A stretch of DNA of 64,000 nt from the NCBI RefSeq assembly GCF_030409525.1, contig NZ_JAUFQB010000060.1, positions 1 to 64,000 on the forward strand, in the 5' to 3' direction. Origin of the DNA: Kaistella yonginensis. GTDB taxonomy: Bacteria > Bacteroidota > Bacteroidia > Flavobacteriales > Weeksellaceae. The notes below the pieces were generated by a model. That model searched no databases. It was not told where the DNA came from and saw only the letters and a list, made by a program, of their open reading frames with translations. Each line of letters starts with the position of its first letter. Positions within the stretch are counted from its first letter, which is position 1. Positions 1,282 to 54,602 of the stretch are shown here, in pieces. The position numbers were made by a program, and so were the translations under genes.

Positions 1282-2463
1282 TTAAGATTCGCTATCCCCT
1301 TCTCTCCCTTCTAATTTATGAATTTTCTTCGTCCCTTCATACATTTCATATTGCATAAAACGACATTCTAATTTCCCGTTGAATAGTTTGATTTTACGTG
1401 AAGGTCGCAAACCTACCCTTTTCAAAGAATCTAAATCGGAAGAAATTAACCATGCTAAAGTATTGGGATAATTTTTCTTAAAGGTATCCCCAATCTTAGC
1501 GTAAAACTCATCATCATTAATGACAATTCGTTCGTCATACGGTGGATTGAAAACCATCATTAGTGGGAATAATTCTTTTTTAGAATCGAAGAAATCTTGG
1601 TGTTTCACTTCGATAACATCATCCAGTTCGGCCGCTTCGATATTGACGCGTGCGGCGTGAAGCATATCAGAATCGATATCATATCCGACAATTTTTCCGG
1701 TAAATTCTTTGACGCGATTAAGGCGAACTTCTTTAATGGTTTGAAATAATTCTTCATCATAATTCAGCCAATTTTGGAAGCCGAATCTTTTACGGAAAGT
1801 TTGTGCGGGTAAATCCATGGCGATCATTGCAGCTTCAATTAGCAATGTTCCTGAACCGCACATTGGATCCAGAAAATTTCCTTTTCCGTCCCAACCTGCC
1901 AGTTGTAACATTCCGGAGGCGAGCACTTCATTCAAAGGCGCTTCGCCTTGTTCTTTTCTGTATCCTCTTTTGAATAAGGCATCGCCAGAAGAATCCAACG
2001 AAATTGTTACCAATTCCCGGTCGATGTGGAGGTGTAATTTAATATCAGGTTGCTGCGTATCAACACTCGGCCTTTTATTGTATTTGAATTTAAAGAAATC
2101 TACAATTGCATCTTTCATTTTTAAAGACATGAATTGAGAATGGGAAAATCGCTCAGAATAAATAGTAGTGTCGATGGCAAAAGTTTGATCAACTGTCATG
2201 TGTTCATCCCAAGGAAAATCAAAGAGCTTGTCATAGAAACGGTTTTCATCCCAGGCTTTGAAAGTGAGAACAGGAACCAAAATCTTTAATGCCGTTCTGG
2301 CAGAATAATTAATTTTATATAAAAAGCCTAAATCACCCTCACAATTCACGGCGCGGTTTTTTACTTCGACATTTGCTCCGCCAAGTTTTCTGATTTCTTC
2401 TGCTAAAATTTCTTCGAGGCCGAAAAATGTTTTAATCTGTATTTTTAAATTTTCTATTTCCAT
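1282..2463 (-). CDS. THUMP-domain class I SAM RNA methyltransferase (RlmL N-domain type)
   Basis: A 393-residue protein with an N-terminal THUMP RNA-binding region (about 1-165) and a Rossmann methylase domain. The SAM-binding loop is LDPMCGSGT (198-206), the acidic motif is GYDID (260-264), and the catalytic NPPYDER (306-312) is typical of N2-guanine or N6-adenine RNA methylases. The length fits the stand-alone equivalent of the RlmL N-terminal half, which makes m2G in 23S rRNA. The substrate is inferred from the family. The C-terminus is a charged tail. A 7-bp inverted repeat sits just upstream of the start. Confidence 0.88.
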   Translation of the reverse strand: MEIENLKIQIKTFFGLEEILAEEIRKLGGANVEVKNRAVNCEGDLGFLYKINYSARTALKILVPVLTFKAWDENRFYDKLFDFPWDEHMTVDQTFAIDTTIYSERFSHSQFMSLKMKDAIVDFFKFKYNKRPSVDTQQPDIKLHLHIDRELVTISLDSSGDALFKRGYRKEQGEAPLNEVLASGMLQLAGWDGKGNFLDPMCGSGTLLIEAAMIAMDLPAQTFRKRFGFQNWLNYDEELFQTIKEVRLNRVKEFTGKIVGYDIDSDMLHAARVNIEAAELDDVIEVKHQDFFDSKKELFPLMMVFNPPYDERIVINDDEFYAKIGDTFKKNYPNTLAWLISSDLDSLKRVGLRPSRKIKLFNGKLECRFMQYEMYEGTKKIHKLEGREGDSES

Positions 2464-2473
2464 ATGTTATTGA

Positions 2474-2488
2474 GCAACAATTTGTTGC
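2474..2488. promoter_or_regulatory. Inverted repeat upstream of the THUMP methyltransferase start
   Basis: GCAACAA and TTGTTGC are perfect 7-bp arms around one central T. They end 11 bp before the start codon at 2463 (minus strand). This could be a small operator or a leader hairpin near the start codon. Nothing else in the window shares it, so its role is open. Confidence 0.3.
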
Positions 2489-2619
2489 GATTGATTAAAG
2501 ATTAAATAATCTTGTATTTACGATTTTTGTTACCGAACAGGTCTGCCTTAAAAGAATCTAAAATACTTTAAATAAGATAAAACCTCAGCAACTTGTCGTT
2601 TTACAATTGCAAATTTAGT

Positions 2620-2627
2620 TATTTTTG
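2620..2627 (+). promoter_or_regulatory. Bacteroidota -7 element giving a likely leaderless mRNA
   Basis: TATTTTTG matches the Bacteroidota TAnnTTTG -7 element. Its last base is only four bases before the ATG at 2632, so the transcription start should fall at or within a base or two of the start codon. A TTG at 2593-2595, 24 bp further upstream, is a possible but slightly distant -33 element. This placement decides the start of the next gene: the in-frame TTG at 2593 would lie upstream of the transcript. Confidence 0.5.
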
Positions 2628-2631
2628 CAGA

Positions 2632-3378
2632 ATGGCATGGTTTAAAACTTGGTTTGATACTCCTTATTATCATATTCTTTATAACGACAGAGATTTCGCA
2701 GAAGCAGAAAACTTCATCACTTTGTTAATCAACTACTTAAATATTCCAGAGAATTCTAAATTAATCGATTTGGCTTGTGGTAAAGGTCGACATTCTGTTT
2801 TTTTAAATAAAATGGGCTTTCGAGTTTTAGGATTAGATTTATCGCAGCAAAGTATTCATCACAACAAAAAATTTGAAAATGAAGCTTTAAAATTTAAGGT
2901 TCATGATATGCGCGATGAAATTTATGCGCAAGTGTCGGATCAGAAAGCAGATGCTGTTTTGAATCTTTTTACCAGTTTCGGTTATTTTGAAGATGAAAAA
3001 GATGACCGGAAAGTTTTTCAATCCATCACTCATGTTTTGAAAGACGGCGGGTACTTTGTTTTGGATTTTTTGAATGCAAAATGGGTAGAAAATACTCTAG
3101 TTGAAGAGGATCACACTACAAAAGGCGGAATAAATTTTACCATTAAAAAGAAAATTGAAGATCAGCACGTTATTAAAGACATTAGTTTTGATGATGATGG
3201 AGAAAATTATCATTTTTTTGAAAAAGTAAAGCTGCACACTTTAGATGAAATAAATCATTACGCGGAAGAATTTGGTTTTGAGCGGATTAAAATCTTCGGC
3301 GATTATGTATTAAATGATTTTAATTTAGAAAGTTCACCACGTTGCATCAGCATTTTCAGAAAGAAAAAACAAGTATAA
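2632..3378 (+). CDS. Class I SAM-dependent methyltransferase
   Basis: I place the start at ATG 2632 (248 residues, MAWFKTWFDTPYYH...) rather than at the in-frame TTG at 2593, because a -7 promoter element ends four bases before this ATG. The SAM-binding motif I is LIDLACGKGRHS (about 43-54), followed by LGLDLS at the end of strand 2 and ADAVLNLFTSFGYF at motif post-II. It belongs to the broad Methyltransf_25-like group acting on small molecules or proteins, and no substrate can be named. The ZIP transporter gene begins 13 bp downstream, so the two are probably one operon. Confidence 0.82.
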   Translation: MAWFKTWFDTPYYHILYNDRDFAEAENFITLLINYLNIPENSKLIDLACGKGRHSVFLNKMGFRVLGLDLSQQSIHHNKKFENEALKFKVHDMRDEIYAQVSDQKADAVLNLFTSFGYFEDEKDDRKVFQSITHVLKDGGYFVLDFLNAKWVENTLVEEDHTTKGGINFTIKKKIEDQHVIKDISFDDDGENYHFFEKVKLHTLDEINHYAEEFGFERIKIFGDYVLNDFNLESSPRCISIFRKKKQV

Positions 3379-3391
3379 AATTGAGGGAGAT

Positions 3392-4084
3392 ATGATTATA
3401 ATTCTGCTAATTCTAAGTGTATTAATTGGAGTGTTTATGGGGAAATTTTTCGGAGATCGAGAAAAATTCGCCAAAAATCTGTTGATTGTAAGTGCTGGAT
3501 TTTTAATTACGATTTGTTTAAATGAAGTTTTTCCGGAGGTTTATTCTGGTGAACATCACAACATTGGTCTTTGGGTTATTGGTGGCGTTTTGCTGCAAAT
3601 GTTATTAGAAAATCTAACCAAAGGCTTCGAGCATGGCCATTTTCATCATCATACCGAAGGGAAAAACATTCTTCCTTTGGCTTTAATGATTGGACTCTTT
3701 ATTCACGCTTTTTTAGAAGGGATTCCGTTGGCAAATGAAGAAGAAATTTTAACGCCTTACCTCACGGGAATTTTGGTACATAATATTCCGATTTCTTTTA
3801 TTTTGGGTGCATTTTTGGTTAAGAATAAAAAGTTTTCGCCCTCTGCTTTTCTGATTATTTCAATTTTCGCCTTGGCATCACCGCTAGGGTTGGTTTTAGG
3901 CAAATATTTTAATCCTAATTTAGAAGTGTACTTTCTGGCGTTGGTTGGTGGAATTTTCCTTCATATTTCCTCTGTCATTATTTTTGAAAGCAATAAAAAT
4001 CACAATGTAGACTGGAAGAAAATTGGATATGTTGCTTTGGGTGTTTTGTTGGCAATGACCAGCCACCTTTTTCACAATCACTAA
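3392..4084 (+). CDS. ZIP family divalent metal transporter
   Basis: A 230-residue inner-membrane protein with about eight hydrophobic segments and the ZIP architecture. A His-rich cytoplasmic loop (EHGHFHHHTEG, about 79-89) lies between TM3 and TM4. The metal-site helices carry HAFLEGIPL (TM4) and HNIPISF (TM5), which match the conserved HNxxEG/HNxPEG positions of ZIPs, although the second Glu is replaced. It probably imports zinc or another divalent metal. It follows the methyltransferase gene by 13 bp and ends at a shared terminator with the convergent porin gene. Confidence 0.85.
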   Translation: MIIILLILSVLIGVFMGKFFGDREKFAKNLLIVSAGFLITICLNEVFPEVYSGEHHNIGLWVIGGVLLQMLLENLTKGFEHGHFHHHTEGKNILPLALMIGLFIHAFLEGIPLANEEEILTPYLTGILVHNIPISFILGAFLVKNKKFSPSAFLIISIFALASPLGLVLGKYFNPNLEVYFLALVGGIFLHISSVIIFESNKNHNVDWKKIGYVALGVLLAMTSHLFHNH

Positions 4085-4100
4085 ACTTTAACCCAAAAAA

Positions 4101-4127
4101 AAGATTCCAAAAATAAATTGGAATCTT
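4101..4127. terminator. Bidirectional terminator between convergent genes
   Basis: AAGATTCCAA (4101-4110) pairs perfectly with TTGGAATCTT (4118-4127) around a 7-base loop. On the minus strand the stem is followed by a run of T, which suits termination of the porin gene; the plus-strand side has a weaker T-run. It lies between the convergent ZIP and FadL-like genes. Confidence 0.8.
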
Positions 4128-4155
4128 AGATTAACTTTTTCTAAATTTTACGCAC

Positions 4156-5556
4156 TTAGAATCTCCAACCTAAGGTAATAAAGAAGTGATCTTTGGTGTT
4201 TTTCACATTCGACACCACTGCGTCATTAGAGTCGACAATATAAGTATCAGAGAAATACCCGGTGTTATTTGCTGCAGAACCTCTTAAGAACGGACTTTTA
4301 TATTCTGAACTTAAATTTTGATATGCTGCATCAATATAAAAGGATTTGAAATCATAGCCAATCCCTGCTCCTATTGTAGTTCTTTTGCCAACAATCAAAT
4401 CATCGTAAGTGGTATTTGCGGCGTTACCATTAGCTGAAAACGCAGAAATACTCATGGAATCAAAAGGGCTGCTTGCAAAACCATAACCACCTCTTAGGCG
4501 AAATGCATCAATTCTATATTCCGCACCGACCTTAATTTCAGATAAACTTTTAGAATTATTGCTGAAGAAATTGTTCAATTCGGTTTCGGCATTTCCGTAA
4601 ACTTTATATTTTGGCTTGGTTAAACCTAGAGAATAATCTACGTTGATTGCAAAGTTTTTATTTGGAACAAAGGCCGCACTTACAGTTGCTTTCATTGGGC
4701 TAGCTAGTTTTCGGTCTTCTGTGTAGGTTCCATCGGTCGGATTTTCGTATTCGTTATACACTCGTGCAATGCTCCACCACGTAGGAGTTTCTACTGATGC
4801 TCCCAGTCTAAACTGCGGATTAATTTTACCGATTACCCCAACAGATGCCGAGAAACCTGTTGATGACTCAGAGAAGGGCGTATATTGTTTATCATAAACA
4901 CTTGTGTTATTATTTAAACTAGAATTAAAGGCAGCAGAATCATACTGGTCGATATTTGCGGTATGAAAATTCAAACCTGCTCCCACATAAATTCTGTTAT
5001 CATAATTCCCTCCAGCTGCAATACTCATTTTCGAAACATCACCGTAGCGATTATACGCATGCCCTGCATAGGTTACATTGTCAATCAAGGTTCCAGCATT
5101 ATAAATATTAAAATTAACATTCGCATTGCCCGGAGTTTCAGAATAGTCCTCAATAGACTGGTTTGAATAGTTTACACCAATATTTACAAACTTCCATGGC
5201 GTAGAATCATCCAAACGAAAAGCCATTACACCTCCAACATTGGTCAAGTCGGTATTATTAAGCTTATAGTCAAGAGCAGTTCCTGCTAATGAAGTTGTAT
5301 TTTTGCTATTTTGAATTGCTAAAGTTCCAGAAATTTCACTGGTGATAGGTACTCCGATTCCAGCAGGATTGGTATTAATTACCGAAAAATCACCACCTAA
5401 AGCTCCCATAGATCCTGCCATAGCGTTATACTTTGCAGAACCTGTAGTTGCTGAATTTGAATATACATCGATCGTATTTCTAAGGGTAGAAATATCTTGA
5501 GCATTGGCAAAATAGGCCGCAGTGAAACTCAAAATTATAAAAGATTTTTTAATCAT
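4156..5556 (-). CDS. OmpP1/FadL-family outer membrane protein
   Basis: A 466-residue outer-membrane beta-barrel of the FadL/TodX type, which passes hydrophobic compounds such as fatty acids. A signal peptide ends at ANAQ (residues 17-20). The mature N-terminus contains the family pattern of an early helix then GSAKYNAMAGSMGALGGDFS and NTNPAGIG, followed by alternating beta-strand sequence up to a C-terminal aromatic residue (ITLGWRF), the usual barrel-assembly signal. It lies 24 bp downstream of the Tyr-rich lipoprotein gene, so they are likely co-transcribed. Members of this family are often loosely named hemin receptors; I see no heme-specific motif. Confidence 0.85.
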   Translation of the reverse strand: MIKKSFIILSFTAAYFANAQDISTLRNTIDVYSNSATTGSAKYNAMAGSMGALGGDFSVINTNPAGIGVPITSEISGTLAIQNSKNTTSLAGTALDYKLNNTDLTNVGGVMAFRLDDSTPWKFVNIGVNYSNQSIEDYSETPGNANVNFNIYNAGTLIDNVTYAGHAYNRYGDVSKMSIAAGGNYDNRIYVGAGLNFHTANIDQYDSAAFNSSLNNNTSVYDKQYTPFSESSTGFSASVGVIGKINPQFRLGASVETPTWWSIARVYNEYENPTDGTYTEDRKLASPMKATVSAAFVPNKNFAINVDYSLGLTKPKYKVYGNAETELNNFFSNNSKSLSEIKVGAEYRIDAFRLRGGYGFASSPFDSMSISAFSANGNAANTTYDDLIVGKRTTIGAGIGYDFKSFYIDAAYQNLSSEYKSPFLRGSAANNTGYFSDTYIVDSNDAVVSNVKNTKDHFFITLGWRF

Positions 5557-5580: not shown

Positions 5581-6570
5581 TTAACGTCTAAAACCACCAG
5601 ATGATCGGGTAGAACCCGAACTCGAGTTAGATGAACCACTGTTTACTCCCCCACCTGAACTTCCTGACCTGAACCCTGCATCATTAGAGTTGCTTCTCGT
5701 GGGTTGGTTATATCTGGGAGTCTCTTGTCTCGGAGTAGCATTTGGTCGCGGGGTGTTATTGGGCTGCGGTGATGTTCTGTATCTCGGCTGATTGTTGTTT
5801 TGCTGTTGATTATTATAACGTGGGTTATTGTTTTGTTGTTGGTTATTATATCTCGGATTAGTATTTTGCTGCGTGTTATAACGTGGGTTATCATTTCTGA
5901 AACCAGAATTTGGATTGGTAGTCGGCCTTAAGCCCGATGGACTATTGCGGAATCCCGATCCGTCAGAACCACTTCTTTTATAATTAAATCCAGGCGCATT
6001 GTAACTGTTATAACCACCGTATCCGTAAGGACTGTAATAACCATAAGGATTATAACCGTAGTAAGGATTATAATAACCATAATATGGATTGTAATAACTG
6101 TAATAAGGACTATAATAACCTAAGAGTGGACTATAACCAAATCGCCAAGGATTATAATAACCACCATAGCCCCAAGATGAACCAAAACCAAAACTCATCC
6201 CAAAACCAAATCCTGAAGAAAACCCGTAAGGATAGCCATAAGAATCATTGTAAAAAGTTTCTGTTCCCGTAAAATTACCCCAATCAGAGTTTTGTGAATC
6301 TTGCCAATTTTGGTTTCTATTGTCAGAATTTAAGTATTTATTTTGATCCTCAGTGTATTGGTAATCATAATAATCACCTACCTGATTTCCGCTATTCATC
6401 ACAACGCCAACTGGAATGGTATCCTTGTTGGGGTCATAATAAACACCATCGGTCTCCGTATAGCCACCCATTGTAGCTCCGCAGGAGGATAAAATAAAAC
6501 CTCCCAAAACTGTCAAGACCAATTTTGATCTTAGTAATCCCATTGTTTTTTTATAAGTAATTTTTTCCAT
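5581..6570 (-). CDS. Low-complexity Tyr/Asn-rich lipoprotein
   Basis: A 329-residue protein of unknown function. A hydrophobic segment ends in the lipobox LSSCGA, so it should be lipid-anchored. Initiation could also be at the internal ATG at 6543 (MGLLRSK...), which gives a more typical signal peptide. The middle (about 115-195) is very rich in Gly, Tyr, Asn and Pro with repeated YNPYYGYY-type units. It is followed by PRYNNQQQNNN-type Gln/Asn repeats and a Ser/Gly-rich tail. It shares a probable operon with the FadL-like porin 24 bp downstream. An adhesive or surface-coat role is possible but not supported by any known domain. Confidence 0.8.
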   Translation of the reverse strand: MEKITYKKTMGLLRSKLVLTVLGGFILSSCGATMGGYTETDGVYYDPNKDTIPVGVVMNSGNQVGDYYDYQYTEDQNKYLNSDNRNQNWQDSQNSDWGNFTGTETFYNDSYGYPYGFSSGFGFGMSFGFGSSWGYGGYYNPWRFGYSPLLGYYSPYYSYYNPYYGYYNPYYGYNPYGYYSPYGYGGYNSYNAPGFNYKRSGSDGSGFRNSPSGLRPTTNPNSGFRNDNPRYNTQQNTNPRYNNQQQNNNPRYNNQQQNNNQPRYRTSPQPNNTPRPNATPRQETPRYNQPTRSNSNDAGFRSGSSGGGVNSGSSNSSSGSTRSSGGFRR

Positions 6571-49234: not shown

Positions 49235-51013
49235 ATGACCAATACACTAAAAGGCGGCGAATTCATCATCAAAGATATTCCTGCAGCAGAAATTTTCAGT
49301 CTTGAAGAACTGACCGAAGAGCAAAAAATGCTCCGTGAATCCATCCATGATTTTATGGAAAGAGAAGTGATTCCAAAGCGTGAGCGTTACGAAAGTAAAG
49401 ATTATGCCTTAACCGAAGCTACCATGCGTCAATTGGGCGAAATGGGAATTTTGGGAATCGCAGTTCCAGAAGCCTACGGCGGACTTGGAATGGGCTTCGT
49501 AAGCACCATGTTGGCCTGTGATATCGTTTCCGGTGGAAATGGTTCCCTGGCGACTGCATACGGCGCACATACCGGAATTGGTACGCTTCCAATTTTATTA
49601 TACGGAAGTGAAGAACTCAAACAAAAATACCTGCCTGCCTTAGCGACCGGTGAAAAATTCGGAGCCTACTGTTTGACAGAGCCTGATGCAGGTTCCGATG
49701 CGAACTCCGGAAAAACCAGAGCAGTACTTTCTGAAGATGGTAAATATTACATCATCAACGGACAGAAAATGTGGATTTCTAATGCAGGTTTTGCAGACAC
49801 TTTCACGCTTTTTGCAAGAATTGAAGACGATAAAAACATCACCGGTTTCGTGATCAACCGCTCTGAACTGGAAGATCCGGCAAGCATGACGATGGGTGAA
49901 GAAGAACACAAATTGGGAATTCGCTCCTCTTCTACCCGTCAGGTTTTCTTTAATGATATGAAGATTCCCGTTGAAAATTTGTTGGGCGAAAGAAACAACG
50001 GTTTCAAAATCGCTTTGAACGCTTTGAATGCTGGTCGTATTAAATTAGCCGCTGCAAACATTGATGGACAAAGAAGAATTACTTCGCTTGCCATCAACTA
50101 TGCGAACGAAAGAAAACAATTTGGCGTTTCTATTTCTACTTTTGGCGCAATTCGTAAGAAAATTGCAGAAATGACAACTGGAATTTTCGTGTCAGAATCA
50201 GGGTCTTACCGTGCTGCAAAAAATGTAGAAGATAAAGTAAATGAATTGGTTGCAGCAGGTTCTACGCACGAACAAGCAGAATTGAAAGCACTGGAAGAAT
50301 ATGCAGTAGAATGTTCTATATTAAAGGTTTACGTTTCCGATCTTACACAGCATATTGCAGATGAAGGAATCCAAATCTACGGTGGAATGGGATTCTCTGA
50401 AGATGCACCTATGGAAGCAGCGTGGCGAGACGCCAGAATTGGCAGAATCTACGAAGGAACCAACGAAATCAACCGACTTTTAGCCGTTGGAATGTTGATC
50501 AAGAAAACCATGAAAGGCGAACTTGATTTGTTGAAACCAGCCATGGCAATCGGAAAAGAACTGATGGGAATTCCTTCTTTTGAAGTTCCAGATTTTTCAG
50601 AATATATGTCTGAAGAAAAAGCCCTCCTTCATAACTTGAAGAAAGTATTCTTGATGGTTGCAGGAGCCGCACTTCAAAAATACATGATGGAAATTGAAAA
50701 ACAGCAGCATCTCCTTTTGAACGCTTCCGAAATTCTGAACCAAATTTACATGGCAGAATCTGCAATTTTACGTGCAGAAAAACATTTCTCCGCAGATTCT
50801 GTAGAAGCAGCAATGGCGCAACTCAACCTTTACAAAGCCGTGGAAGCAATTACCACAGCCGCAAAAGAAGGAATTGTATCCTTTGCAGAAGGCGACGAAC
50901 AACGCATGATGCTTTCTGGTTTACGCAGATTTACAAAATACACCAATATGCCAAATGTAGTGGCGCTGACTGAAAAAGTGGCGGCGCATTTTATGGAGAA
51001 AGGAGCGTACTAA
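49235..51013 (+). CDS. fadE: Acyl-CoA dehydrogenase, FadE type
   Basis: First step of beta-oxidation: FAD-dependent oxidation of acyl-CoA, passing electrons to ETF. The 592 residues match B. subtilis FadE in length and carry FAD/substrate motifs YCLTEPDAGSDANSG and KMWISNAGFAD, RKQFG, and the catalytic Glu in IGRIYEGTNEINR. A C-terminal extension of about 150 residues follows the core, as in this subfamily. The last gene of the marR-fadN-fadA-fadE operon. Its electron acceptor EtfBA is encoded 17 kb away under the same type of operator. Confidence 0.95.
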   Translation: MTNTLKGGEFIIKDIPAAEIFSLEELTEEQKMLRESIHDFMEREVIPKRERYESKDYALTEATMRQLGEMGILGIAVPEAYGGLGMGFVSTMLACDIVSGGNGSLATAYGAHTGIGTLPILLYGSEELKQKYLPALATGEKFGAYCLTEPDAGSDANSGKTRAVLSEDGKYYIINGQKMWISNAGFADTFTLFARIEDDKNITGFVINRSELEDPASMTMGEEEHKLGIRSSSTRQVFFNDMKIPVENLLGERNNGFKIALNALNAGRIKLAAANIDGQRRITSLAINYANERKQFGVSISTFGAIRKKIAEMTTGIFVSESGSYRAAKNVEDKVNELVAAGSTHEQAELKALEEYAVECSILKVYVSDLTQHIADEGIQIYGGMGFSEDAPMEAAWRDARIGRIYEGTNEINRLLAVGMLIKKTMKGELDLLKPAMAIGKELMGIPSFEVPDFSEYMSEEKALLHNLKKVFLMVAGAALQKYMMEIEKQQHLLLNASEILNQIYMAESAILRAEKHFSADSVEAAMAQLNLYKAVEAITTAAKEGIVSFAEGDEQRMMLSGLRRFTKYTNMPNVVALTEKVAAHFMEKGAY

Positions 51014-51015
51014 AA

Positions 51016-51064
51016 TCATTGCGAGGAAGTCATTAAGTTCGTCATTGCGAGGAACGAAGCAATC
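51016..51064. repeat. Dispersed repeat with two TCATTGCGAGGAA words
   Basis: TCATTGCGAGGAA occurs at 51016-51028 and 51042-51054, the second followed by CGAAGCAATC. This phrase is a common dispersed intergenic sequence in Bacteroidota as I recall. It lies directly after fadE. Confidence 0.6.
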
Positions 51065-51082
51065 TTTCTCTTTTAAATATTG

Positions 51083-51112
51083 AACGCCTCAAGAAATTGG
51101 GGCGTTTTTTTA
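51083..51112 (+). terminator. Terminator of the fad operon
   Basis: AACGCCTC pairs with GGGGCGTT around an 8-base loop, followed by seven or more T, 70 bp after fadE. Confidence 0.87.
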
Positions 51113-51168
51113 TACATGCCTGCAAGTCGGAAACTTTGCGACCCACTGCCGTGTGGTCACCCGCCACC

Positions 51169-51340
51169 CACCTCCCAAACGGCGATGACCACCTTACCCA
51201 AGCACCCTACCCACCTTAGGTAAGCACCCCCTACACCTTCATTTTTGAAAAAACCACCTTACCCAAGCACCCTAGCCTCCTTGTATAAGCACCCCACCCA
51301 CCTCAAAAAGGGCGATAACCTGCTTCAAGAGGTGGTTTTC
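51169..51340. repeat. Tandem array of about eight units, 21-22 bp period
   Basis: Units start at 51169, 51190, 51212, 51234, 51255, 51277, 51299 and 51320, all 21 or 22 bp apart (mean about 21.6). Most begin CACCT; the best-conserved share CACCTTnnnnAAGCACCC, in which CTT-n4-AAG is itself a small inverted repeat. Order is mirrored at the ends: the unit at 51169 (CACCTC...GGCGATGAC) is paired by the unit at 51299 (CACCTC...GGCGATAAC), and the 51190-51212 pair recurs at 51255-51277. C-rich on plus, G-rich on minus, unlike the surrounding AT-rich DNA. Period is about two helical turns and not a multiple of three. Confidence 0.75.
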
Positions 51341-51382
51341 TCATGATTTGACCAATTTTTTAAATTTTTTAGCATAAAAAAT

Positions 51383-51401
51383 GCCCCGCAAATTGCGGGG
51401 C
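51383..51401 (-). terminator. GC-rich hairpin 3' of the 160-residue protein gene
   Basis: GCCCCGCAA and TTGCGGGGC form a perfect 9-bp stem. On the minus strand it is followed by CATTTTTTATG, so it should terminate the gene at 51438-51920 before the tandem array. Confidence 0.8.
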
Positions 51402-51437
51402 CCCCTTAAAAATAATGATGTTTGGGAAAAACAATCA

Positions 51438-51920
51438 CTATCCATTTTCTGTTGGTCTATTTTTCTTTGCACGGGGCAAGAAGAATTGTTTCAGTTCGTC
51501 TCGTTTGGTTTCAAAACCAGGCTTGTGTGCCCCCGCTTTGTAGTTGCAATATGCGTAATCATCTAGTGCGGCTTGGTAATTATCATAATCGTGCAAGATT
51601 TTTGTATTTTTCAACAGCAAGGCAATTGCATCAATTCGGTAGGTGATGCCTTCATAAAAGCTGCGGCTGTCCTTATCTTTCTCAAATTCTTCCCAATCCA
51701 CATCCGGTGACGAAAGTTCTGGGCTATTATGTCTGTAGTCCCAATCTTTATTGATAAAGAGTTTGTGCTGTTCGTTTACACTGCCATACAATTGGCGCTC
51801 TTGCGGCGTAAGCGTGACCGATAAATCACTGAGTTCATTTTCCAAACTGCTTATTGCTGTTTGGATGGCGTTTTTTTTTGCCGCTGTGAGGTGAAAATTA
51901 TTTAAGTTGTTAATAGGCAT
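51438..51920 (-). CDS. Hypothetical protein, flavobacterial family
   Basis: 160 residues, soluble, acidic and aromatic-rich, mostly helical. Distinctive stretches are LTPQERQLYGSVNEQHKLF, LSSPDVDWEEFEKD and KILHDYDNYQAALDDYAY. I recall similar uncharacterised proteins in other Flavobacteriia, but no function. It has no signal peptide or membrane helix. It is isolated: a hairpin terminator and the 22-bp-period array lie on its 3' side and about 390 bp of gene-free DNA on its 5' side. Confidence 0.8.
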   Translation of the reverse strand: MPINNLNNFHLTAAKKNAIQTAISSLENELSDLSVTLTPQERQLYGSVNEQHKLFINKDWDYRHNSPELSSPDVDWEEFEKDKDSRSFYEGITYRIDAIALLLKNTKILHDYDNYQAALDDYAYCNYKAGAHKPGFETKRDELKQFFLPRAKKNRPTENG

Positions 51921-52307
51921 GGCACTCTGGTTTTAAAATTATTACGATAAAATTAATAACAAAAACGAAATAAAACAATCGTGAAAACACCCATTTTTCA
52001 GGGGACGGTCTTAAAAGAAACTCCTCGCTATAACCATGCGTTCCTTTCAATACGGATTGGTAGCATCTGATCATTAATTCGAGCCTCAAACAAGCCACAG
52101 CACTTTGGCAAAATTAATAAGCTAGCCTCCTGCGCAACGTCTCCGACTTTGAGCAACCACAATCTCACTCCTCATAATTATTATACTTCCGAAATTCACT
52201 TGTTTTCGTAGTATCTATAATTAGTGGATCTGCCAGTTCTATTTGTCGCAATCCTTCACCACCACTATCCAAAATTAATTGCCTAAGAATATTTAAATTC
52301 CTGCGCT
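51921..52307. other. Gene-free stretch between the 160-residue protein and the TonB pseudogene
   Basis: I see no convincing gene. A short open frame (51910-52098, minus) overlaps the real gene start and looks accidental. A word related to the hairpin motifs at 54804 and 54998 occurs at 52129-52154 (CTGCGCAACG and CTCCGACTTTGA). Confidence 0.5.
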
Positions 52308-54602
52308 TTAAAATTGATACTGCAAGTGTAAACCGCCATAATAATTTCGGAAATTTCCGGGATAATAATAACGGGGCGCTTTGCCACCAAATCCTACCGC
52401 ATTGGTCAGAATACTTGCGGCATATTTTTCATCAAAAATATTATTGATTCCAAAATAAATATGAGCTTCAGCACCGCCGAAAACAATCAATTTATAGGCG
52501 GTCTTTACGTTCACAACCTGATAGGAATCCGTGCGACCACTGTTGGAATCATTTAAATAAATTAGACCAACCTTGCGGGCATTCAAATAAAGATGAACGC
52601 CGAATCCTGTTTTCAAATCAAGTCCGTAATTTAGGGTGTAATTTGGAACGCCGGGAAGTTTATTTCCTGAAAAATCACCGTTATTATTTATGAAATTCCG
52701 AAATTCAAATTGATTTAAAGAGCCATTAAAAAAAGGATTCACACTAATATTTTCTGAAAGATTAAAACGGTAATTGGCTAGAAATTCTACTCCTTTTTGA
52801 CTTGTTTTACCCGCATTTACGCCCACATATTGGTCTTCTGCAACGCGTTGTGCGACCAATAGATTTTCAATTTCAATAGTATATCCATTAATTTCTGTGT
52901 ACAATTTATTTTTCAGCCAGTTCGCCTTAAAACCGATCTCATAGTTCGTACCGGTTTCGGGATTTAAATCTGTGTTAATGGTTCTTTCCGGGGTTAATGT
53001 TTCGGCAACGGTTGGAATAGAAAAACCTCTGCTTATGGATGCATAAAAATTTTTACCTTTTGATAGCTCGTAACTTGCACCCAATCTTGGTGAAAAAATC
53101 GGCTCGAATCTGTAATTTCCATTTTGATTAGAAATACCCGAATTAAAACGATCGGTGAGATTGTAGGAAGTTGTATTAAAATTAAAGCCCGTTTGCAGTT
53201 TAAATTTAGGATTAATTTCAAAATTAATTTGTCCAAATCCGTTGATAAAAGTCCTTTCCTGCTTATTTTCACTGATGCGGTCGCCCTGGACACTACCCTG
53301 CCCCGGGAAATTTTTATACAGATTTTTAAAATTTCCAGTTTGAAACCATTCGGTGTAAAATTCCCCGCCAAAACTGATCTCTGATTTAATGTTCAATATT
53401 TTACTAATCCAATTAAACTTTGTTCGCACCCCAGTAGAAATGCGATCCTCTTCCAAAATATCAAAAGGTCTCGGTTCATATCCATTTCTAAAACTGATGA
53501 ATGTACTGGTTGTATTTTGCAGCTTTTCTGTCAGAAAATGGGTGTTAGACAAACCAAGTAATCCTCTATCGTAAGATTCATAGCCTTCTGATTGCGCCCA
53601 ACTGAGATCGGCAGTGGTGGGACTGTTGATGAAATCATTATAATTGATAGAACTGGGAATAAAAGCTTTCAGTCGGGTGAAATTAGCGAGATAGGTTAAA
53701 TTCGATTTTTTGTGAGCAGCAATATTTCCATTGATCACTACAGACTGTTTGCTCAACTTTCCGTTTTCTCTAAAGCCATCACTTGTCAAATTACTGAAAG
53801 AGGCAAAAAGACTGGCATTTTTCAGTGATAAGGCAGTTTCCGCCGTGTATTTTTGGGTATTAAAACTGCCTACCTGACCGCTGATCTTAACTTTATTCCC
53901 ATCCGATATTTTCGATTGCGCCTATAAATTAATTGAACCTCCTAAACCGGCTCCAAAAATACTTGAAGTTGGTCCTTTTATAATTTCAATATGATCTAAA
54001 CTTTCAGGATCAAAATCATCCAGGGTAAGTTCTCCTTCTGCCGTAGCGAGTGGAATTTCGTCGAAATAAGATTGGATTCGGTTGGTGCTGTATTGAGAGC
54101 GCGCTCCAATTCCTCTGATGGTAATTTTGTTGGTGTTTAATGCCCCTTGATTGATAAACAAACCGGGAGCCGTTCCTAGACTTTCCAAAATAGTTACTCC
54201 ATCGGTACGGTCGAATTCCTTTTGACCAATTACACTAACGGCCGCCGGAATTTCTTGCAGATTTTGGGGAACCAAAGTACTTCTCAAAATGACCTCTGAA
54301 ATGGCTATTGCTCTCCGTTGTAAATAAATTGCTTGAATTCCAGGTTTTGATTCTAAATTTATAGATCGATCAGCGTATCCCAAAGATTTAAGTGTAAATC
54401 GGCCCGGCAAATAGTTGCCATTAATAAAAAATAAACCGTCTTTCGATTTTGTTAATAAAGTATTGTTGAAAAAAATCTCCGCTTCAATAATATGGTAAAT
54501 ATCGGAAGCATCAACAATTTGAAATTGATTTTGTTGTGCTTCAACGATTGGTAAACCGTAGAGGAGAAAAAGAGCGCAAGTAATCCGTTTTAAAAAATCC
54601 AT
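52308..54602 (-). pseudogene. TonB-dependent receptor interrupted by one in-frame amber codon
   Basis: A 764-codon reading frame with a single TAG (plus-strand CTA at 53922-53924). Residues 1-226 hold the signal peptide (ending VEAQ), a short carboxypeptidase-like extension and the plug, ending HIEIIKGPTSSIFGAGLGGS-INL. After TAG the same frame goes on as AQSKISDGNKVKISGQVGSF through 44 codons to the ATG at 53789, then 493 residues of barrel ending GLHLQYQF. No other lesion is visible. The plug and barrel would be separated, so the receptor should be non-functional unless the codon is suppressed or is a base error. Siderophore-type receptor; ligand unknown. Confidence 0.88.

Follow-up and report, generated by a model that had tools for sequence, protein, structure and literature searches.

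Plasmid iterons are repeats of 17–22 bp that lie about two helical turns apart and are bound by Rep. BIME/REP elements are palindromic repeats found at the 3' ends of genes, a single palindrome being present in many copies in the genome. In CRISPR loci, repeats of about 25–36 bp are separated by unique spacers and accompanied by cas genes, and in the centromere satellites of eukaryotes the unit length is kept while the sequence turns over. To our knowledge, no bacterial DNA element with a phylum-wide period but changing letters has been described. A search of the open-licence literature (subscription journals and preprints being outside its scope) returned nothing on a gene-linked array of 21-bp units, and no paper came to light when the spacing of iterons was searched for. 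TIGR arrays consist of two repeats of 8–12 nt which alternate with spacers of 9 nt, or up to 12 (PMC12045711).

The window, that is the whole stretch of 64,000 nucleotides that was analysed, contains a tandem array which is almost certainly part of a conserved gene-plus-array locus. This is a two-part chromosomal locus of the Bacteroidota, made up of a gene for a 160 amino acid protein, a terminator and an array in which the unit of approximately 21 bp is kept and the letters change between lineages. The features of the locus in the window are:

49235–51013, + strand: acyl-CoA dehydrogenase, a core gene which borders the array
51082–51107, + strand: intrinsic terminator belonging to the acyl-CoA dehydrogenase gene; it flanks the array on the side away from the 160-aa gene
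51169–51340, no strand assigned: tandem array of eight units of 21–22 bp (mean 21.6)
51383–51401, − strand: intrinsic terminator belonging to the 160-aa gene, which it separates from the array
51438–51920, − strand: 160-aa partner gene; its product is acidic and all-helical and belongs to a family that has no name in Pfam or NCBIfam
51981–51992, − strand: GGGTGTTTTCAC upstream element, 61–72 bp 5' of the start codon of the 160-aa gene

The 160-aa gene is transcribed towards the array, which sits 3' of it and past its terminator, and no genes lie in the gap between the array and the dehydrogenase. The upstream element (GGGTGTTTTmAC, 0–2 mismatches) was found at 15 of the 26 loci of the genus, where it begins 72–94 bp before the start. 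The pattern of turnover is that of the centromere satellites of eukaryotes, an analogy in which scale, organism and bound proteins differ. The VNTR loci of Flavobacterium psychrophilum are intergenic tandem repeats too, but they have units of 4–9 bp and the accessible part of that report mentions no partner gene family (PMC4501049).

The eight units start at positions 51169, 51190, 51212, 51234, 51255, 51277, 51299 and 51320, with steps of 21, 22, 22, 21, 22, 22 and 21 bp; such steps are incompatible with coding, and the original prediction had rightly held coding repeats to be unlikely. Its 21.6-bp tandem array proved to be real. Using periods of 12–50 bp and dinucleotide shuffles as controls, the comb score was 6.2 at 21.5 bp, which none of 1000 shuffles equalled, and the period persisted in autocorrelation, both the comb and the single-lag tests beating all shuffles. 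The best single lag was 65 bp, or three units, with 54% identity (reached by none of 2000 shuffles), so that there is a higher-order repeat of three units as well. The predicted CTT-n4-AAG dyads are present in four units (51190, 51212, 51255 and 51277), and the end units at 51169 and 51299, spaced by 130, are alike (81% over 32 nt). The C-rich island was borne out (GC 0.545, GC skew −0.45 at 51100–51299), as were the terminators that flank the array on each side. The dyad symmetry of this array is not significant (p 0.18), and among the 26 arrays of the genus it has the lowest score (T 5.6; next lowest 7.5). Tandem Repeats Finder missed it with default scores and recovered a part of it with looser ones.

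Relatives of the array emerge when its period, not its letters, is searched. A sequence search of the own genome turned up the array only once, and a comparison with 60 relatives gave short matches only (best E 0.0011 over 33 bp). The pattern CACCTTnnnnAAGCACCC, which had been proposed for a search of related genomes, would miss the relatives, since among the 36 genomes of the genus it forms an array in its own genome only. In 14 other genomes of the genus it has one or two scattered matches, a reversed control pattern having about as many. At least 118 stretches of the genome collection were matched, with one match apiece in the 80 that were listed, and we take these matches as chance. A longer two-unit pattern matched none of the viral contigs, and Rfam gave nothing above its cut-off on 50900–52400, with two matches far below it.

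Homologs of the 160-aa protein are present in 18 of the 36 genomes of the genus, at 26 loci; some genomes have two or three, and a few of the genes are broken. A single-sequence search detected homologs in 16 of 296 Bacteroidota genomes, with identities down to 21%, and a profile search in 32 of 395. Among 50 genomes reached via other loci, they were found in one of seven that the record titles assign to the Bacteroidota and in none of the 43 others. Plasmid records, phage records and viral contigs yielded no homologs. In a stretch of 360 bp on the 3' side of the gene, autocorrelation was best at a lag of 21, 22, 42 or 43 bp at all 26 genus loci, with a mean z of 7.1 at lag 21 and 5.9 at lag 42.

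For a wider survey, both flanks of the gene were scanned over a maximum of 900 bp at 77 loci from 49 genomes (26 loci in 18 genomes of the genus and 51 loci in 31 genomes beyond it), an array being scored at T ≥ 5.5 with a period of 20.5–22.5 or 41–45 bp. L298 was included in the count of 3' arrays, and the fragment G259:C52 (L241) was excluded from the 77 loci despite its period of 21/64. The predicted co-occurrence with the 160-residue family was confirmed by a 3' array at 61 of the 77 loci, which correspond to 60 arrays, the tandem genes L247 and L237 of G183 having one array between them. All 26 genus loci have such an array, as do 35 of the 51 beyond the genus, or 35 of 46 when five gene fragments are left out. 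On the 5' side of the same 77 loci an array was scored at three. The homologous loci share descent, and these counts are to be read as non-independent trials. With any period admitted at T 5.5 the 3' count is 62 of 77, the sole locus of another type being L262 at 32 bp, and all 56 loci with T ≥ 8 are of the 21-bp type; among 879 random stretches of 900 bp from the own genome, three reached T 5.5 and none T 8. The two-helical-turn spacing that had been predicted for the window is therefore a conserved property, the fitted period of the 56 loci, in a fit restricted to 20–23 bp, having a median of 21.00 and a mean of 21.12 (sd 0.27). A 3' array is missing at 16 of the 77 loci, five of which are the gene fragments, among them L238 with a 3' flank of three bases. 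At one locus, L248, the array lies on the 5' side.

A terminator was found between gene and array at 42 of 53 loci, including 23 of 23 in the genus (shuffles 4.1), and the array therefore lies outside the transcript of the gene, barring read-through. The number of units varies among related species, as had been anticipated: the array of L184 is 63 bp longer than that of L185 and 42 bp longer than that of L170.

The rarity of such arrays was assessed in 40 stretches of 20 kb (800 kb) of the own genome, in which T 6 is passed at 17 periodic places. The sole non-coding array of 20.5–22.5 bp in this sample lies 3' of the second 160-aa gene. The other non-coding repeats have periods of 29.5, 46.5, 16 and 41 bp, and the one of 41 bp (L331, T 7.1) falls inside the period window too. 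Three arrays of period 21 pass T 8 in 268 kb from other flavobacterial loci, each of them on the 3' side of the dehydrogenase of another species. A sample of 903 kb from diverse genomes gave one array of period 21 in L121 (Saprospiraceae), one of 22 in L075 (Acinetobacter) and one of 42 in L050 (Bifidobacterium). Palindromic repeats 3' of genes recall BIME/REP, but unlike that element, two arrays are present in the examined part of the own genome, both adjoining members of the 160-aa family, and the array of the window is single-copy.

It might be supposed that the array is a neutral minisatellite which hitch-hikes with the gene and grows by slippage, and the shifts in unit number between close species, the rapid divergence of letters and the many mismatches tolerated would all accord with this. 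Slippage would not readily account for a single unit length at 56 of 56 strong loci when the non-coding repeats of the own genome differ in period, nor for the constant side behind a terminator, for lineages with unrelated letters yet equal unit length, or for one palindrome recurring at non-orthologous loci of the genus, and we regard this explanation as improbable.

The palindrome in question is GGTTC-n-GAACC. It occurs exactly in eight of 23 genus arrays, in 16 with at most one mismatch and in 19 with at most two (shuffles 0, 0.1 and 0.9). The corresponding numbers are 0, 1 and 6 for the 5' flanks of genus loci (26 flanks, 400 bp from each), and 1, 2 and 6 for 32 arrays beyond the genus. 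The window's array is without it, the best match having four mismatches, and the array of the paralog L186 contains it once with one mismatch. The letters are therefore not free inside the genus, and they change between lineages. The 8-mers common to array pairs amount to a median of 0.9% (55 arrays), and 10% is exceeded by 85 of 1485 pairs; where related loci from close species were compared, they had 10–83% in common.

Twofold symmetry was also evident in the array consensus, for which the mean dyad score was 0.585 vs 0.483 in shuffled arrays; of the 63 arrays, 23 had a significant dyad (p<0.05) and 40 did not. For palindromes whose arms measure four bases, enrichment extends over all gaps from 0 to 12 and is greatest at odd gaps (gap 0, 86 vs 46 shuffled; gap 1, 100 vs 45). 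The hairpin-sized gap of 3 is among these (102 vs 43), the closing inner pair being missing in half. Because all gaps are enriched, the palindrome test alone cannot separate DNA dyads from hairpins, and a transcribed chain of small RNA hairpins, as a small RNA or an mRNA 3' end, could also produce the enrichment at hairpin-sized gaps. Single strands of the window's array do form more stable folds than their shuffled controls (z −2.0 to −3.1 for four stretches, one of which contains the terminator of the dehydrogenase). RNA covariation at the dyads was not detected, complementary double changes numbering 55 vs 51.8 expected by chance, so the dyads are not kept by compensatory change. Neither was there a strand preference or G-U excess, the ratio of G-T to A-C mismatches being 146 : 152, and it is mainly this which points to duplex DNA rather than RNA. 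With a terminator intervening and no Rfam match above cut-off in 50900–52400, hairpins of RNA appear quite improbable, and a small RNA from the array, for which the original prediction had suggested looking, seems unsupported by either the strand or the covariation signal.

The TIGR-Tas systems offer another comparison. A guide array of that type would have about 10 constant and about 11 variable bases, often in a double unit of 42 bp, and an adjoining small helical protein. The short-repeat array beside a gene for a small helical protein and the palindromic elements are likenesses (PMC12045711); several arrays have their best period at 41–44 bp, and L298 is composed of the constant AGGTCGAGCT and variable 10–11-mers. 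L298 is, though, the closest approach to the unique spacers of TIGR arrays, for in most of the 37 arrays compared the variable columns are largely common to the units, that is, repeated. TIGR-Tas arrays are transcribed and cut into 36-nt RNAs, against which speaks the terminator preceding the array at those 42 of 53 loci, together with the missing strand preference. The 160-aa protein has neither a Pfam match to Nop nor a significant PDB match by fold (Foldseek) or sequence, a remote fold being possible. A guide array of this kind is highly improbable. CRISPR differs as well, in that the unit here is 21 bp and the spacers are mostly not unique; cas genes were seen beside at least two of the 58 fetched neighbourhoods (L390 and L394).

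The 160-aa protein was modelled as all-helical with a helix of 55 residues (pLDDT 88). It shows no match in Pfam or in NCBIfam, and PHROGs gave matches only at E ≥ 0.19. The paralog L186, the sole member submitted to PADLOC, had no match there. No significant relative was found in the PDB by sequence or fold, and fold searches with the model yielded nothing usable (best VIA-align Z 3.6 over 65 residues). Twenty-eight of 31 family members have a pI of 4.6–6.2, L191, L226 and L237 being higher; this acidic charge set back the protein as a candidate for the binder of the array.

Plasmid iterons share with this locus the in-phase direct repeats of about 21–22 bp adjoining a small gene (here a median of 21.00, and 21.6 in the window). 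The array is, however, chromosomal and its units are strongly degenerate, and no plasmid homolog was found. Iterons repeat one binding sequence per unit; of the arrays studied here, most of those in the genus contain GGTTC-n-GAACC and that of the window does not. The partner protein is without a Rep domain (Pfam), a PDB relative or a plasmid or phage homolog, so that membership among the plasmid iterons is not borne out. Of the original interpretation, the two-turn spacing is supported, and a plasmid iteron and a small RNA are not.

Binding sites for protein on one face of the DNA are the preferred reading here too, given 61 of 77 loci and a median period of 21.00. The array may be, with something near an even chance as judged from sequence comparison, an in-phase platform of double-stranded DNA for a dimeric DNA-binding protein. 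It would act as duplex, apart from the transcript of the gene. One site per two helical turns would make all sites face one way, and since they would be on one face a dimeric binder could assemble side by side. A palindromic site that is partly common to the loci within one lineage suggests a binder which changes with the lineage. The 160-aa protein, being acidic, is an unlikely binder; basic Cro-like helix-turn-helix proteins, such as a family encoded beside like arrays, would be better candidates. Several observations count against the platform. The window's own array is weak and lacks both a significant dyad and the genus palindrome, 3' arrays are missing at 16 of the 77 loci, most arrays (40 of 63) show no significant dyad, the array of L248 is on the 5' side, and arrays occur without the 160-aa gene at L211, L213 and L215. 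Autocorrelation in the genus arrays falls at 21 and not at 10.5 bp, and a regular-expression search placed the helix-turn-helix family beside three of 60 neighbourhoods, all of them in G259. For the platform, the palindrome shared within the genus outweighs the wide range of enriched palindrome gaps.

In G259 the order at three loci is 160-aa gene, array and helix-turn-helix gene. Arrays of 21 bp lie directly 5' of genes of this small basic family at L211 and L215, and 5' arrays were found at four of nine further loci (L289, L291, L292 and L293). The pI is 9.2–9.7 in eight of eight proteins. The model (pLDDT 76) matches SinR, 434 Cro and C.BclI with Foldseek probabilities of 0.99–1.00 but E ≥ 0.047; Pfam HTH_3 (E 0.014) is below cut-off, and a match to HigA has an E-value of 0.008. 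The predicted structure resembles that of Cro-like repressors, and the family may share this fold. Since this family and a third one carry arrays too, the array is the common part. The third family (about 200 aa) is represented by L121 1524–2141, L287 and L288, with 21- or 42-bp arrays 5' of the gene. The three 21-bp arrays that other species have on the 3' side of the acyl-CoA dehydrogenase are located at L211 365–580, L213 3350–3600 and L215 100–310, with the 160-aa gene not within reach; two are 5' of a helix-turn-helix gene (the L215 copy having an in-frame stop) and one stands alone.

The genes beyond the array were investigated in 58 fetched neighbourhoods, 23 from the genus and 35 from beyond it; when the locus of the window and the second own copy are added, 25 of the 26 genus loci were covered. 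Locus groups I, II and III have their outer core genes in common, and the interval from the array to the next core gene contains different genes in different species. At the corresponding locus of G009, extra genes separate the array from the dehydrogenase, including one of 823 aa without a match in Pfam or PADLOC. Homology among close loci, compared in four groups, breaks off at the distal end of the array or a short way past it.

According to Pfam, restriction-modification genes lie beyond the array at seven of the 25 genus loci: EcoO109I (L339), BglII (L340), EcoRV (L341), MmeI (L342), EcoRI methylase (L357 and L361), and, at the own copy in L321, an N6 methylase with two specificity proteins. 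This and the other Pfam defence counts are lower bounds, obtained from selected proteins of the 3' side. RloB was identified beyond the array of L344, and ParE-type toxin genes at L345 and, by blastp cluster, at L351 and L356. Beyond the genus, defence-type genes were found by Pfam at no fewer than seven of 35 loci (at least L366, L368, L369, L378, L381, L390 and L392). The cargo of L368 includes a DncV-like cyclase, ThiF and E2, and that of L390 Cas4; L394 is similar to L390 by eye. At other loci ordinary genes follow the array, among them TypA, a ROK kinase and DUF5686 (Pfam). PADLOC, run by family, matched 313 models with 113 3'-side proteins and 195 with 108 5'-side proteins. Only the Pfam results were counted, because PADLOC gives no per-protein counts and Cas1 in two members leads the 5'-side list (best 25 of 195).

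These neighbourhoods would suit a border or landing site, where recombination at the repeats would link incoming cassettes of restriction-modification, toxin-antitoxin or other defence genes to the core chromosome. Core genes outside and species-specific genes inside groups I, II and III, the end of homology at or shortly past the distal array end, a cargo with EcoO109I, BglII, EcoRV, MmeI and EcoRI-type genes, and the placement of gene and array between cas1 and cas4 in G188 are all as such a model would have it. A second periodic stretch before the next core gene was, however, absent from the 14 loci examined, the common sequence resuming (by eye) at the terminator of the core gene; Pfam shows no recombinase domain in the 160-aa protein; and ordinary genes are found at L362–L365, L371, L372 and L376 (by eye) and at L353, L354 and L360 (Pfam). 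No special insertion mechanism is needed, since the gap between two terminators is harmless for any insertion. Such a border or landing site is rather unlikely.

To return to the DNA platform, the locus often borders regions in which there is exchange of restriction-modification genes and other genes of defence, and we conjecture on this basis that it would organise, shield or mark such a region. A wider proposal, which is possible though rather doubtful, is that of a phylum-wide system in which the spacing and the twofold symmetry of the array would be kept, the letters would be lineage-specific and an acidic helical protein would be dedicated to it, often at the edge of an anti-phage hotspot; this might be a new defence, or a device for keeping or exchanging defence cassettes. 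Tools based on sequence are blind to an element whose period is conserved and whose letters are not. The locus can be tested and its arrays found through the partner gene, because a single family, a single side and a position behind a terminator are involved. The frequent restriction-modification and defence neighbours suggest that the array may serve as a handle for finding defence loci of the Bacteroidota.

Several minor observations were made. In L390 the 160-aa family gene and an array with a period of 43 bp lie between cas1 and cas4 (1725–4533), Cas1 being called from PADLOC and by eye and Cas4 from Pfam. L394 also has a gene of the 160-aa family, with an array under the threshold. Two adjacent variable 10–11-mers of L298, from genome G594, are near reverse complements of each other. 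Long G-rich repeats of 13 and 20 bp occur at 1100–3400 of L104 (Acidobacteria). In the window, a dispersed repeat, TCATTGCGAGGAACGAAGCAATC, is situated immediately 3' of the dehydrogenase (51016–51064); the own genome has three copies of it that are exact and one that differs by two mismatches. A further 21-bp period of the window, in sequence of coding-like character, was seen at 5941–6136.
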